A stretch of 64,000 nucleotides of DNA from Bacillota bacterium (GTDB lineage Bacteria > Bacillota > Clostridia > Lachnospirales > Bianqueaceae), in contig JAFZQZ010000104.1 in the NCBI GenBank assembly GCA_017620135.1, positions 1-64,000 on the forward strand, written 5' to 3'. Below, in pieces: positions 2,762 to 23,785 of this stretch. The position numbers and the translations under genes are program-made. Below the pieces are notes generated by a model, which was given only the letters and a program-made list of their open reading frames with translations, had not been told where the DNA came from and ran no database searches. The first letter of the stretch is position 1. Each line of letters opens with the position of its first letter.

Positions 2762-2784
2762 TAAAATCCAGAAGATAAAAGAAA

Positions 2785-2853
2785 AGAGCCCACACAGTAC
2801 CTCCACGCGAGTTCGCGAAGTGTGCCGAACGCTGGAGGTATAGTGTGGGCTCT
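2785..2853 (-). terminator. Two-tiered terminator with conserved loop (copy 1)
   Basis: An outer 11-bp stem (2785-2795 with 2843-2853) and an inner 8-bp stem (2798-2805 with 2833-2840) enclose a 27-nt loop. On the minus strand a T-rich run follows, so it ends the GH3 glucosidase transcript. The minus-strand loop contains TCGGCA, CGCGAA and CTCGC in order, and the same order occurs in the terminator at 22767-22838, whose stems are unrelated in sequence. See the finding on this motif. Confidence 0.85.
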
Positions 2854-2881
2854 TTTTGTTAAGTTTTTGTTTTAAGGAAAG

Positions 2882-5305
2882 TTATTTCACCAGTTTCAGT
2901 GCCATCCGGTAGACTCTCGTCGCGTTGATCTCCAGCTGTTTTCTGGAGACCTCACCGGCCTTCAAAGCGGCCAGGAGCGTCTTATAATCCTTCGGACTGC
3001 CGGGCATAAACAGATCGCCGCCGGCTGCCGCCACAAAGGAAGAAAGGGAAACCCGATGAGCCGCTTTGCCGGATCCCATCATCGAGACGACCCAGTCGGT
3101 CATGACGATTCCCTCATACCCCCACTCACTGCGCAGGATATCTTCCGTCAGATCCCGGCGTTCATTGGTATGGGTGCCGTTCAGCAGGTTATAGGAAGTC
3201 ATGAGCGCGTGCGGCTGAGAGGTCTTTACGCAGATCTCGAACCCTTTCAGATAGATCTCACGCATCGCGCGCTCACTGACATGAGAGTTATTGGTATAGC
3301 GCTGGAATTCCTGGTTGTTCGCCGCATAGTGCTTGATGGTCGTGCCACAGGTCGGATGCTTCTGCACTCCCTTTGTGATGCCTGCCGCGAATACGCCGCT
3401 GACCAGCGGGTCTTCGGAGAAATACTCGAAATTACGTCCGCACAGGATGCTGCGGTGGATGTTCAGCGCCGGTGCCAGCCAGAGATTTACACCGAACCGC
3501 TCCATCTCCGCACCGACGACGTCCCCGCACACTTCCGCTACTTCCGGATTCCAGCTCTGCGCGATGGCTGTTCCGATCGGAATGGCTGTGCAGTACTGAT
3601 CTTTTGTTTCCGCATTCTTCGGAGCTTTGGGCTGCAGAAGCTTCATGCCGATCAGGAAAGCCTTGGGCATCAGCGGCTCCATGCTCTCCGGAAGCATACC
3701 GGCTTCATTGTAGACTTTCTTTCCGTCTGTCTTGTAGATCTTGGTCAGGCGAAGACCGGCCGGGCCGTCTGCCATGACCATGGCAGGAATGCCTTTATCC
3801 TTAAACAGAGAAGCCGACTCTCCGGCTGCGCCGGCGACGGTCATGGAAGCGCTTCCGATGACGGAAAGTATGCCGCCCTTTGGATCGAACGCGCCGATGT
3901 TCATGTAGCAAAGCTCTTCATCGGTCATTTCGCTGAACAGAGGATCGATGGGTAGTTCCGGATCATAGGCGATCTCTTCGGTCTTGATCGAAGCAGGATC
4001 CAGTATAAGGATCGGTGTATCCACCGGCACAGCACTTTCCCAGGTGTTTTCCGGTTTCCAGTCTTCAAATCCGGGATCGCCCAGGGCATTTTTCACTTTA
4101 CGAACCACGATCTCTTCATCCAGAGAGATGACACCCGCGACCGAAGTATCACGGCTGCTGGTACCGGCTCGAAGGATATAGGGACCGGCTTCCAGTAAAT
4201 AAACCGCATCTTCCGCTAAGAAGGAAGCAAGGGAGGACATGTCGAAGGAAACGGTCACTTCCTCGGACGCGCCGGGCAGCAGTTCACCAGATTTCCTGAA
4301 ACCGGCCAGCACCTGATATGGCTGATCCAGTTTGCCCTGAGGTTTGGTCACATATATCTGGACCGTTTCCTTGCCGGCGAATTTTCCTGTGTTGGTCACC
4401 GGGACCGTCACTTCGACTTTTTCACCGTCCAGAGCTACTGAAGCTTTCCCCAGCTCGAATGTCGTATAGCCAAGGCCATAGCCAAAGGGGAATACCGGCT
4501 CCTTCGAAACGGTGTCGAAATACCGATAACCCACGTAAATACCTTCTTTATATTCGGTATCATCGGGATCGCCGAAAGTTCCTTCTTTGCAGTAATCGTC
4601 CCAGGCTGCCCAGGTCGTTGTAAGCTTGCCGGAAGGATAAGCTTTGCCAAGCAGGATCTGTCCGAGGATCAGTCCCTGTTCCACGCCCAACTGCGAAAGG
4701 ACCAGGATATTCTTCACTTCCGCGACCGGTGCCAGATCCACCGGACCTCCCACGTTCAGCACCAGCATGAACTTATCATACTTTTTGTTCAGTTTAAGAA
4801 TATCTCTTTTTTCGGTCTCGGTCAGCAGGATATCGCCTTCTACCGCCTGACGGTCGTTGCCTTCGCCACTGATCCGGGACAGAATATATACGGCTACATC
4901 CGCTTCCGCATCGAGCGGCAGATAGTAATCCGGCTCCGGCATAGCCAGACCCATACCTTCCATGATGGCCATGGTATGTTTCTTTCTGGCACGCTCCTTA
5001 ATATCCTGATAGAACTGGATCTCGGCCTGTTTGCGGACTTCGTCGTAGGCATCCAGCCATTCACCGCTGGTGATCTCGAAACCGACCTTCTTCAGACCTC
5101 TCTCCGCGTTGATCGAGAAGCGGGAATTGACTTCACCGGATCCTGTGCCGCCCTTGATGGTATAACGGGCTCCGCTTCCGTATAAGGCCAGCTTTCCTGC
5201 CTCTGTGAGCGGAAAATCCCCGTTGCTCTTCAAAAGCACGGTACATTCCGGCAGGTATTTTCTGATTTTTTTCAGATGTTCTCTCTCATAGGTGTAAAGT
5301 TCCAT
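2882..5305 (-). CDS. Glycoside hydrolase family 3 beta-glucosidase, permuted domain order
   Basis: This GH3 enzyme has 807 residues and no signal peptide, so it is probably a cytoplasmic glucosidase or related exo-glycosidase. The usual domain order is rearranged. The alpha/beta sandwich domain (with AYPSGKLTTTW and the FPFGYGLGYTTF stretch) and the fibronectin-like domain come first. The TIM barrel follows in the C-terminal half. It carries KHYAANNQE and the nucleophile motif GIVMTDW, with the Asp near residue 737. Reversed domain order is known for some rumen and gut clostridial GH3 enzymes (for example Ruminococcus albus and Butyrivibrio beta-glucosidases). The start ATG at 5303-5305 follows CAGGAGGAAGAG; a longer open frame to 5494 overlaps the DUF1292 gene and is unlikely. 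It lies 19 bp downstream of the DUF1292 gene. Confidence 0.92.
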   Translation of the reverse strand: MELYTYEREHLKKIRKYLPECTVLLKSNGDFPLTEAGKLALYGSGARYTIKGGTGSGEVNSRFSINAERGLKKVGFEITSGEWLDAYDEVRKQAEIQFYQDIKERARKKHTMAIMEGMGLAMPEPDYYLPLDAEADVAVYILSRISGEGNDRQAVEGDILLTETEKRDILKLNKKYDKFMLVLNVGGPVDLAPVAEVKNILVLSQLGVEQGLILGQILLGKAYPSGKLTTTWAAWDDYCKEGTFGDPDDTEYKEGIYVGYRYFDTVSKEPVFPFGYGLGYTTFELGKASVALDGEKVEVTVPVTNTGKFAGKETVQIYVTKPQGKLDQPYQVLAGFRKSGELLPGASEEVTVSFDMSSLASFLAEDAVYLLEAGPYILRAGTSSRDTSVAGVISLDEEIVVRKVKNALGDPGFEDWKPENTWESAVPVDTPILILDPASIKTEEIAYDPELPIDPLFSEMTDEELCYMNIGAFDPKGGILSVIGSASMTVAGAAGESASLFKDKGIPAMVMADGPAGLRLTKIYKTDGKKVYNEAGMLPESMEPLMPKAFLIGMKLLQPKAPKNAETKDQYCTAIPIGTAIAQSWNPEVAEVCGDVVGAEMERFGVNLWLAPALNIHRSILCGRNFEYFSEDPLVSGVFAAGITKGVQKHPTCGTTIKHYAANNQEFQRYTNNSHVSERAMREIYLKGFEICVKTSQPHALMTSYNLLNGTHTNERRDLTEDILRSEWGYEGIVMTDWVVSMMGSGKAAHRVSLSSFVAAAGGDLFMPGSPKDYKTLLAALKAGEVSRKQLEINATRVYRMALKLVK

Positions 5306-5324
5306 CTCTTCCTCCTGTTTTTGA

Positions 5325-5645
5325 TTATTCGACAAAGTCAAAAAATTCTTCACTGCGTTTCCGGAACAGTTCGAAAACCGCGTCGACTTCCGCCTGCGTC
5401 TCCAGGCCCACATAGGTCTCGGTATCCTGGTCCTCATCGGGTTCGACCCGATAGATCTCGACCTGTTCGATCGGCGAATCATCGCCGGCCACATACGGGA
5501 CGACTATGATATAATCCTTTTCCTGATATGAAACGACATCCAGCAATTCATACTGGACTTCATTTCCATTCGAGTCGGTCAGCTCCAGGAGCACCGGCTC
5601 TTCAGCCTCATCCTCCAGCGGCCGATTGTCAGGGTTTTTAGCCAT
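5325..5645 (-). CDS. DUF1292 (YrzB-like) protein
   Basis: This is a small acidic protein of 106 residues with the DUF1292 pattern: an LTDSNGNEVQYELLDVV opening, a short beta-rich segment (YIIVVPY), and an acidic end with EAEVDAVF-like helix. The function of this Firmicutes family is unknown. It starts with ATG at 5643-5645 behind GAAGGAG and is followed 19 bp later by the GH3 gene, so the two probably share a transcript. Elsewhere in Firmicutes the family usually sits near housekeeping genes rather than a glycosidase, so the pairing may be incidental. Confidence 0.85.
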   Translation of the reverse strand: MAKNPDNRPLEDEAEEPVLLELTDSNGNEVQYELLDVVSYQEKDYIIVVPYVAGDDSPIEQVEIYRVEPDEDQDTETYVGLETQAEVDAVFELFRKRSEEFFDFVE

Positions 5646-22148: not shown

Positions 22149-22748
22149 ATGAATCATATTATTCAGGATATCAGTGATTTTATCTTTGTCTCCGATCCCC
22201 CTGTGGATGCCGATATCATCATGGTCCCCGGCGGGTCCTATCCCGAGCCGGCGGAAGTCGCAGCCCAGCTTTATCATGAAGGCTACGCGCCGATGATCCT
22301 GATCGGCGGAGGCGTATCCATCGCGACAAGCAAATTCCCCGGACCCAAGACCAAGACCAAGATCTATACCGGGGATTATCAGACAGAATATGAGTTTTAT
22401 TTGGATGTGCTCCAGAAAAACGATGTTCCGGATGACGCGATCATCGGAGAGGATCAGTCCTCCTTCACCCGCGAGGCCGGCATCTACGCGCGCCAGCTGG
22501 TAGACGAGAAACAGATCTCCGTCCGCTCGGCCCTGCTTGTCTGCAAAGCCTTCCACGCCCGCCGCTGCCTGATGGCATATCAGGCCGCCTTCCCGCAGGT
22601 CGAATTCTCTGTCATCCCGGTCACCGGCTACGACATTACCAAGGAAAACTGGTATCAGGATGAGGAAGCCATAGGTCGCGTCATGGGCGAGCTGCGCCGC
22701 ATCGGCGATCAGTTCACCGTCGCAGACATCAATCAGTTCAAAGAATAA
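22149..22748 (+). CDS. YdcF-family protein (DUF218), soluble
   Basis: This 199-residue cytosolic DUF218 protein has the family pattern IIMVPGGSYPEPAEVAAQLY, ILIGGGVS, STREA-like SSFTREAGIYARQL and LLVCKAFHARRCLMAY. It lacks the N-terminal membrane segments of the DUF218 protein at 6838-7584. The reaction is not known. Start ATG at 22149 follows a strong AAGGAGG. A two-tiered terminator follows directly. Confidence 0.88.
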   Translation: MNHIIQDISDFIFVSDPPVDADIIMVPGGSYPEPAEVAAQLYHEGYAPMILIGGGVSIATSKFPGPKTKTKIYTGDYQTEYEFYLDVLQKNDVPDDAIIGEDQSSFTREAGIYARQLVDEKQISVRSALLVCKAFHARRCLMAYQAAFPQVEFSVIPVTGYDITKENWYQDEEAIGRVMGELRRIGDQFTVADINQFKE

Positions 22749-22766
22749 TTTTATTCATACATAAAA

Positions 22767-22838
22767 AGGGCGTTCCAGCGCCCCCGCTGCTCGGCAGTTG
22801 CTGCGCAAAACTCGCAGCGGGGACACATGGAACGCTCT
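22767..22838 (+). terminator. Two-tiered terminator with conserved loop (copy 2)
   Basis: An outer 11-bp stem (22767-22777 with 22828-22838, one G-U pair) and an inner 9-bp stem (22782-22790 with 22814-22822) enclose a 23-nt loop, followed by TTTTT on the plus strand. The loop reads TCGGCA, then CGCAAAA, then CTCGC at its 3' edge, the same order as in copy 1 at 2785-2853. It ends the YdcF transcript and may also act on the convergent cysE operon. Confidence 0.88.
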
Positions 22839-22870
22839 TTTTGTGTGTACAGACTCATTCTCTGAGCTGA

Positions 22871-23785
22871 TTATCTATCTTCAGAGGTCTGTGACTGTGA
22901 TACGGAAATCGTTTTTGCCGTATTGTATATGATGGAGTATGGCGGAACAGAGCTGGTGAGCCATACGCTGCCGCCGATGATCGATCCTTTGCCGATCACG
23001 ACATCACCGCCGAGGATCGTGGCACCGGCATAAATGACGACCCGGTCTTCCACTTCCGGATGACGTTTGCCGCCTTTGACAGGATGACCGTTTTCATCCA
23101 GATCAAAGCTCTTGGCGCCAAGGGTGACTCCCTGGTAAAGCTTGACATGACGCCCGATCCGGCATGTCTCGCCAATGACCACGCCCGTACCGTGATCAAT
23201 AAAGAAGTATTCCCCGATCTGCGCGCCAGGATGGATATCGATCCCCGTCCGGCTGTGGGCGTATTCCGTCATCATACGGGGGATCAGCGGCATGCCCAGC
23301 TCAAAGAGCCGGTGTGCCAGCCGATAGATCGTGATCGTTTCAAAGGCCGGATAGGCCAGCATGACCTCTTCCCTGGAACGCGCGGCCGGGTCACCATCAT
23401 AAGCCGAGGTGATATCCTTATCCAGCATCCGCGCGATATCAGGCAGCGATTCCATAAAATCCCGGGTAATGCATTCCGCCTTGGATTCACAGTCCTCCGG
23501 TCCGGTCATGGCGTCTTCCACGTTCGGCAGGACATCCTTCGCGATCTCGTAAAGGAGCATCGCTGTCTCCTGGAACAGCCGGGAAATGGTCGTCTCCCGG
23601 AAATCGTCCGTCAGCTTTTCTTCATAGTAAATGGTCGGATACATGACCGACTGCAGCAGGTGGATCAGTTTTTCCACCCGCATTTTCAGCGCGTAACCGC
23701 CGATCGATCCATTCTTCGTTCCGGTCTCGGCCATTACCTTCTGCGCGTGGACCTGGATCTCTTCATTCAGCCATTTGGAAAACAT
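22871..23785 (-). CDS. cysE: Serine O-acetyltransferase, EpsC type
   Basis: The enzyme acetylates L-serine for cysteine synthesis. The 304-residue chain has an N-terminal helical region typical of the longer EpsC form. It is followed by the left-handed beta-helix: TGIDIHPGAQIG, DHGTGVVIGET, VKLYQGVTLGAKS, GGKRHPEVEDRV and IGGSVWLT. The catalytic His residues in IHPGA and DHGTG are present. Start ATG 23783-23785 follows GAGG, 4 bp after the GatD-like gene. It is the last gene of the alr, MurT-like, GatD-like, cysE run. A cysteine biosynthesis gene in this company is unexpected. Confidence 0.94.
   Translation of the reverse strand: MFSKWLNEEIQVHAQKVMAETGTKNGSIGGYALKMRVEKLIHLLQSVMYPTIYYEEKLTDDFRETTISRLFQETAMLLYEIAKDVLPNVEDAMTGPEDCESKAECITRDFMESLPDIARMLDKDITSAYDGDPAARSREEVMLAYPAFETITIYRLAHRLFELGMPLIPRMMTEYAHSRTGIDIHPGAQIGEYFFIDHGTGVVIGETCRIGRHVKLYQGVTLGAKSFDLDENGHPVKGGKRHPEVEDRVVIYAGATILGGDVVIGKGSIIGGSVWLTSSVPPYSIIYNTAKTISVSQSQTSEDR

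Follow-up and report, generated by a model that had tools for sequence, protein, structure and literature searches.

Petrillo et al. (2006) described intergenic stem-loop repeats near gene ends, among them the Efa elements of Enterococcus faecalis (PMC1590033). The element that we describe here resembles these repeats, now called EFAR (listed as 'Efa', PMC1590033), in that both are intergenic stem-loop repeats found near gene 3' ends in a Firmicute. It is, however, shorter, amounts to about ten copies, and conserves internal loops instead of stem sequence. In a later paper, EFAR repeats were reportedly found to integrate into pre-existing, unrelated stem-loops and to keep part of the target stem; for the element described here, integration into a stem-loop is no more than a possibility.

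Two other systems invite comparison. REP/BIME repeats, which are associated with RAYT (Y1) transposases, are likewise dispersed, short gene-end hairpins whose imperfect stems carry constant mismatches. In contrast, REP stems are conserved and have a GTAG foot, while our element has variable stems and no foot was seen. The HRC-8-4 motif and the guanidine-IV and HMP-PP riboswitches share with it a terminator hairpin with conserved tip nucleotides; those motifs lie upstream of the genes they regulate, whereas our element is found at 3' ends, mostly between convergent genes (PMC8632094).

The window analyzed in this work, a stretch of 64,000 nucleotides from the genome of a Bacillota bacterium (Lachnospirales, Bianqueaceae), contains two hairpins of common build: an outer stem, a short internal loop, an inner stem and a TCGGCA...AACTCGC tip. 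Their features are the following:

2777–2860, minus strand: copy 1, nested terminator hairpin, with a GH3 glycosidase gene (2882–5494, minus strand) on one side and MarR-type/FtsH genes (minus strand) on the other
2823–2828, minus strand: copy 1, 5' strand of the conserved internal loop, TCGGCA
2809–2813, minus strand: copy 1, 3' strand of the conserved internal loop, AACTC
2782–2786, minus strand: copy 1, T-run past the outer stem (terminator)
22762–22844, plus strand: copy 2, nested terminator hairpin, 3' of a YdcF/DUF218-like gene (22149–22748, plus strand) that is convergent with cysE (22871–23785, minus strand)
22778–22781, plus strand: copy 2, 5' strand of the first internal loop, GCGC (C.A mismatches alternating with G-C pairs)
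22791–22796, plus strand: copy 2, 5' strand of the conserved internal loop, TCGGCA
22798–22808, plus strand: copy 2, variable tip hairpin TTGC-TGC-GCAA (T-N-C triloop; GNA on the opposite strand)
22809–22813, plus strand: copy 2, 3' strand of the conserved internal loop, AACTC
22823–22826, plus strand: copy 2, 3' strand of the first internal loop, ACAC
22838–22842, plus strand: copy 2, T-run past the outer stem

A T-run trails the outer stem in both hairpins. Compared with shuffled sequences, their folding z-scores range from about −7 to −10 on either strand, and none of 200 shuffles matches them. The pattern TCGGCAN{4,20}AACTCGC has two matches in the window, both at these hairpins, when 0.07 are expected; two matches were reached in one of 100 shuffles. 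These figures bear out the original observation that the two hairpins share their build and a loop motif, and the plain terminators of the window at 27, 37.8 and 56.8 kb lack the motif, as had been proposed. Conservation of TCGGCA and AACTC(GC) was also confirmed; however, 'CGC(G/A)AA', listed as a separate conserved word, proved to be the 3' arm of the variable tip hairpin running into AACTC.

The genome to which the window belongs (G000) has nine copies, found by pattern scan, a sequence-only model and a structure model. A sister species (G006) has ten sense copies, one of which (C15:148198) carries TCAAACA in place of TCGGCA; the G000 contig stops just short of the site equivalent to this tenth copy. 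Eight of the nine G000 copies have a G006 counterpart at the same gene end: ilvE, gltD/argG, gyrA, YdcF/cysE, GH3/GH3, DUF1846, glyA/TPM and GH3-MarR. The first model (R1), made from the sequence of two copies only, was superseded by R2 and R3. Two of the copies in the R2 seed had been lightly trimmed (one base pair or unpaired bases) to permit a gapless alignment; R3 was built on unaltered sequences. Copies left out of the model were recovered: copy 1 (2781–2851 of the window, held out of R3) at an E-value of 2.3e-13, the oadA copy at 5e-8, and G006 C15:148198 at 2.1e-9.

When all sense copies are aligned, the element is about 75–85 nt long and shows a consensus order: outer stem, GCGC/ACAC loop, inner stem, TCGGCAG/AACTC loop, tip hairpin, the other arms, and a T-run. 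In the GCGC/ACAC loop, G-C pairs alternate with C.A mismatches. The inner stem is variable and ends in a C-G pair; the tip hairpin varies in length and is often closed as C-TNC-G. The GCGC/ACAC loop is replaced by TATA/TACT in copy 1, and is missing from the oadA copy of G000.

The copies of G000 and G006 all lie at the 3' ends of ordinary genes: gyrA, glyA/TPM, ilvE, gltD/argG, DUF1846, oadA, two GH3 sites and YdcF/cysE. They have the features of intrinsic terminators, namely stable hairpins rich in G+C at the 3' ends of genes, with a T-rich run past the outer stem. Judging from these features, the copies probably terminate transcription intrinsically, in many cases in both directions where two genes converge, a setting found in six of the nine G000 copies. 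The latter figure weighs heavily on one conceivable explanation, a terminator-type riboswitch of the guanidine-IV or HMP-PP sort, whose aptamer sits in the hairpin tip. That class is indeed marked by terminator hairpins with conserved tip nucleotides (PMC8632094), but between convergent genes there is no downstream gene to regulate, and Rfam yielded no match; we thus regard a riboswitch as most improbable.

The stems and the internal loops have evolved in very different manners. In an alignment of eight G000 loci that was fitted to the structure, and is therefore biased in favor of pairing although the margins are wide, 95.6% of cells are paired and both sides have changed in 19 of 23 pairs, compared with 10.6 in shuffles; none of 500 shuffles reaches 19. 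If the partner is slid by 1–3 columns, pairing falls to 33–52%. Addition of the sister-species copies left the covariation outcome unchanged. Among paralogs, differences in the module amount to 6/231 cells and those in the stems to 453/966; in the four intact G000/G006 ortholog pairs the module shows 0/44 changes and the stems 20/181, with the caveat that cells are not independent in either comparison. The ilvE ortholog pair is an example: the outer, inner and tip stems are all altered with pairing kept, and the module is identical. Hence, the claim that base pairing is kept by different bases holds over these eight loci, and so does the view of a recurrent element with a conserved loop, since the genome scan provided further copies and the loop is conserved among them.

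The stems had also been said to share no sequence. This is correct for the outer stems of the two window hairpins; across the family, however, outer arms of paralogs retain a similarity of 0.44, compared with 0.27 in shuffled arms (p 0.0005), a value that may partly reflect positional composition common to terminators. The residual similarity suggests that the copies are probably of common descent and not the product of convergence. Descent might be the whole story if the copies were plain terminators multiplied by duplication or gene conversion, with a functionless loop whose sameness would come from recent descent or loop conversion. The residual similarity agrees with this explanation, and some copies have lost the module at no visible cost. 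Neutral descent, however, leaves unexplained why, within the same copies, stems have changed about twenty times more than the module, and why the module shows no change between species at sites whose stems did change. Gene conversion limited to the loops is possible; nonetheless, we consider plain duplication distinctly improbable. Interspersed hairpin repeats are usually known by their conserved stems, and here the unpaired module is fixed while the stems have been exchanged through matched changes, the pattern left when a hairpin is recognized by its shape together with a handful of unpaired nucleotides.

The distribution of the element is narrow. It is present in two of seven genomes of the genus, G000 and G006, and absent from the five other congeners. 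A model scan of 392 genomes of the order, with 12 candidates scored per genome, gave two weak matches beyond G000 and G006, and a scan of the order with the tip pattern placed the remaining genomes at control level. Among 84,980 genomes, one per GTDB species, the exact tip pattern had a sole match, a goat-omasum MAG contig, in a search from which records of the window genome may have been excluded. Phage and plasmid collections held no match to the element, and viral contigs searched for the window-type tip pattern had none. The proposed check against Rfam brought no family: under both gathering and permissive thresholds, matches at the element were chance matches far below the thresholds. A literature search found no description of it either. 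The element is thus a new, narrow, lineage-specific family of terminator hairpins in which conservation is reversed, with the loop fixed and the stems free.

Comparison of individual sites revealed that the module can be lost while the terminator is kept. In G006, the copies at gyrA (L029) and GH3 (L030) lack the AACTC half of the module and retain the terminator, and the oadA site (L110) has a plain terminator. In G006, the element now seems to be degenerating. Plain terminators are also found at argG/gltD in G002 and G005, and at YdcF/cysE and oadA in G003. The glyA terminator of G003 contains CGGCACACTTCG, in common with the tips of the copies at 2785 and glyA/TPM; the model does not detect this site, and the shared sequence may hint at a greater age of the element. 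At GH3/GH3, the G000 copy (L019) exceeds its G006 counterpart (L030), which lacks AACTC, by 36 nt in the tip hairpin, an indication that hairpin tips change by indels. On the 3' side of ilvE (L015 and L027), G000 has about 350 bp more intergenic sequence than G006.

The only site found in filled and empty states lies between oadA and an AAA-ATPase gene. The plain terminator of G006 has nearly the same outer stem as G000 (AAGAACCCAGGACGAAAGTTTTTGTCCTGGGTTCTT), and G000 carries the module inside that stem. The G000 insert has TGTCC direct repeats on both sides, and the 3' arm of the insert shows complementarity to the sequence flanking the insert on the 5' side. A recent insertion in G000 would account for the site, but a single slippage deletion at TGTCC in G006 explains it at least equally well. 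Recent movement is therefore no more than a possibility. No clear target-site duplication was seen.

Presence in so few congeners, together with loss of the module from gyrA, GH3 and oadA, argues against an essential RNA function. The same observations count against a trans-acting RNA element, in which one host RNA-binding protein or nuclease would bind the loop and protect, process or regulate mRNA 3' ends, with selection acting at each site. Such a scheme would accommodate nearly invariant loop nucleotides within covarying stems, the conservation of two separate internal loops, and a regularity of the three tandem-gene sites (2785, ilvE and DUF1846), all of which place the same strand on the mRNA. 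However, three like-oriented sites are too few to prove action at the RNA level, and the genes concerned have no common theme. We view a trans-acting RNA as unlikely; the observations are better matched by a dispersed repeat doubling as a terminator than by a conserved regulatory RNA.

The explanation that we favor, with some confidence, is that the copies belong to one small repeat family, lineage-specific and dispersed, whose stem-loops act as intrinsic terminators at gene ends, descend from a common ancestor, and carry a module recognized by a putative factor. One ancestral copy would have spread through the genome before the split of G000 and G006. Unconstrained positions of the stems would then have drifted with pairing maintained. 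A putative factor reading the folded hairpin would have kept the TCGGCAG/AACTC loop constant and, with less stringency, GCGC/ACAC. We infer that the module is, or was, the recognition site for this factor, whose target might be RNA or else single-stranded or cruciform DNA. In copies with a perfect short tip, the T-N-C triloop reads as G-N-A on the opposite strand, and a GNA triloop closed by C-G is exceptionally stable in DNA. Recognition at the DNA level stays a hint, as the energy models used do not separate the strands. In sum, the interpretation originally offered is partly supported: recurrence, loop conservation and pairing kept by different bases hold, and a protein-bound loop or a role in 3'-end stability is conjecture.

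No partner protein or mobilizing enzyme was found, and no transposase adjoins the copies examined. RAYT/Y1 transposases, considered as carriers, do not track the copies, and none was seen flanked by them. A single diverged Y1-like gene occurs in each of G000 and G006, and is also present near oadA in congeners without the element:

G000:C121:23065–23364: Y1_Tnp-like gene, with counterparts at L387, L386, L385, L388, L399, L402 and L404

Each genome of the genus encodes this diverged Y1_Tnp-like protein, of ~244–305 aa, at a distance of a few kb from oadA, and its inheritance is apparently vertical. The idea that the element might be a DNA-uptake signal was rejected, as about ten copies are far too few.

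Other repeated hairpins were noticed among congeners. G003 has a repeated terminator (L123:484, L125:10202, L130:954 and L131:5357) with a conserved stem, approximately AATACCTGATAAGCA, and a variable loop, the opposite of the window element. G004 has repeated long inverted repeats (L114:6014, L121:4630 and L122:9303) with apical TACTCTGCCGCAATCC...GATGCTGCGGAAGCC and variable stems.

A possible wider family came to light in the order. Of 392 genomes, 48 contain the pattern AACTCGCN{0,10}GCTCARACA, G245 having the most copies (93), and a reversed control gave near zero. Palindromes of this kind, with the tip AACTCGC-hairpin-GCTCARACA, occur at loci L193 and L290–L309, among others (G245, G140, G388, G330 and others); a literature search found no published description of them. 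Most of the sites that were read form long hairpins. Their stems vary, a second internal loop is present, and A/T runs are embedded in some of them. In G140 and G388, a fixed outer part and a fixed inner part flank a variable, well-paired middle stem beside A/T runs. The likeness to the window element lies in the variable stems, the conserved tip module, and the same two strands and closing pair; in contrast, the palindromes have these strands in swapped order, are longer, and form genome-specific subfamilies.

Could the window element be a member of this wider clostridial palindrome family, with the same tip loop in swapped strand order (AACTC-hairpin-TCARACA) and a common factor? The closing pair is the same in both orders (C|TC..., AACTC|G), and TCARACA is followed by G in 22 of 32 places, matching TCGGCAG. 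The G006 copy with TCAAACA has the strand order of the window. Furthermore, the only two AACTC...TCARACA copies of G004 (L092 and L093; C139:5763 and 4060) are located at the glyA and TPM ends, a place occupied by a window-type copy in G000 and G006. On the other hand, the resemblance covers a short stretch and was spotted post hoc, nothing else aligns outside the module, and a search of 800 kb from two genomes possessing the family gave no swapped-order copy. G000 and G006, in turn, have no tip in which AACTC precedes TCARACA; the order in the window element is the reverse. Many viral contigs contain the word without the hairpin. We therefore hold a common family to be plausible yet short of probable; this reading is compatible with the dispersed-repeat explanation, and our estimate is not exclusive of it.

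In IMG/VR viral contigs, AACTCGCTNCGCTCARACA was detected in 87 stretches (L203–L282), some of them hairpins and some not, with several near-identical phage backgrounds. Within genus g10, the number of palindrome copies ranges from 0 to 93, which favors repeats that expand and vanish over a housekeeping RNA.

An attractive speculation, doubtful as a whole, is that one internal-loop module, in either strand order, marks terminator-associated hairpins across the clostridial order, and that a putative factor reads their folded form and spreads or maintains them, with the loop fixed and the stems free. Even without the palindrome link, the element is an undescribed terminator family in this lineage. 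If the link is true, it would pose a defined, testable question: what reads such hairpins in many gut bacteria.
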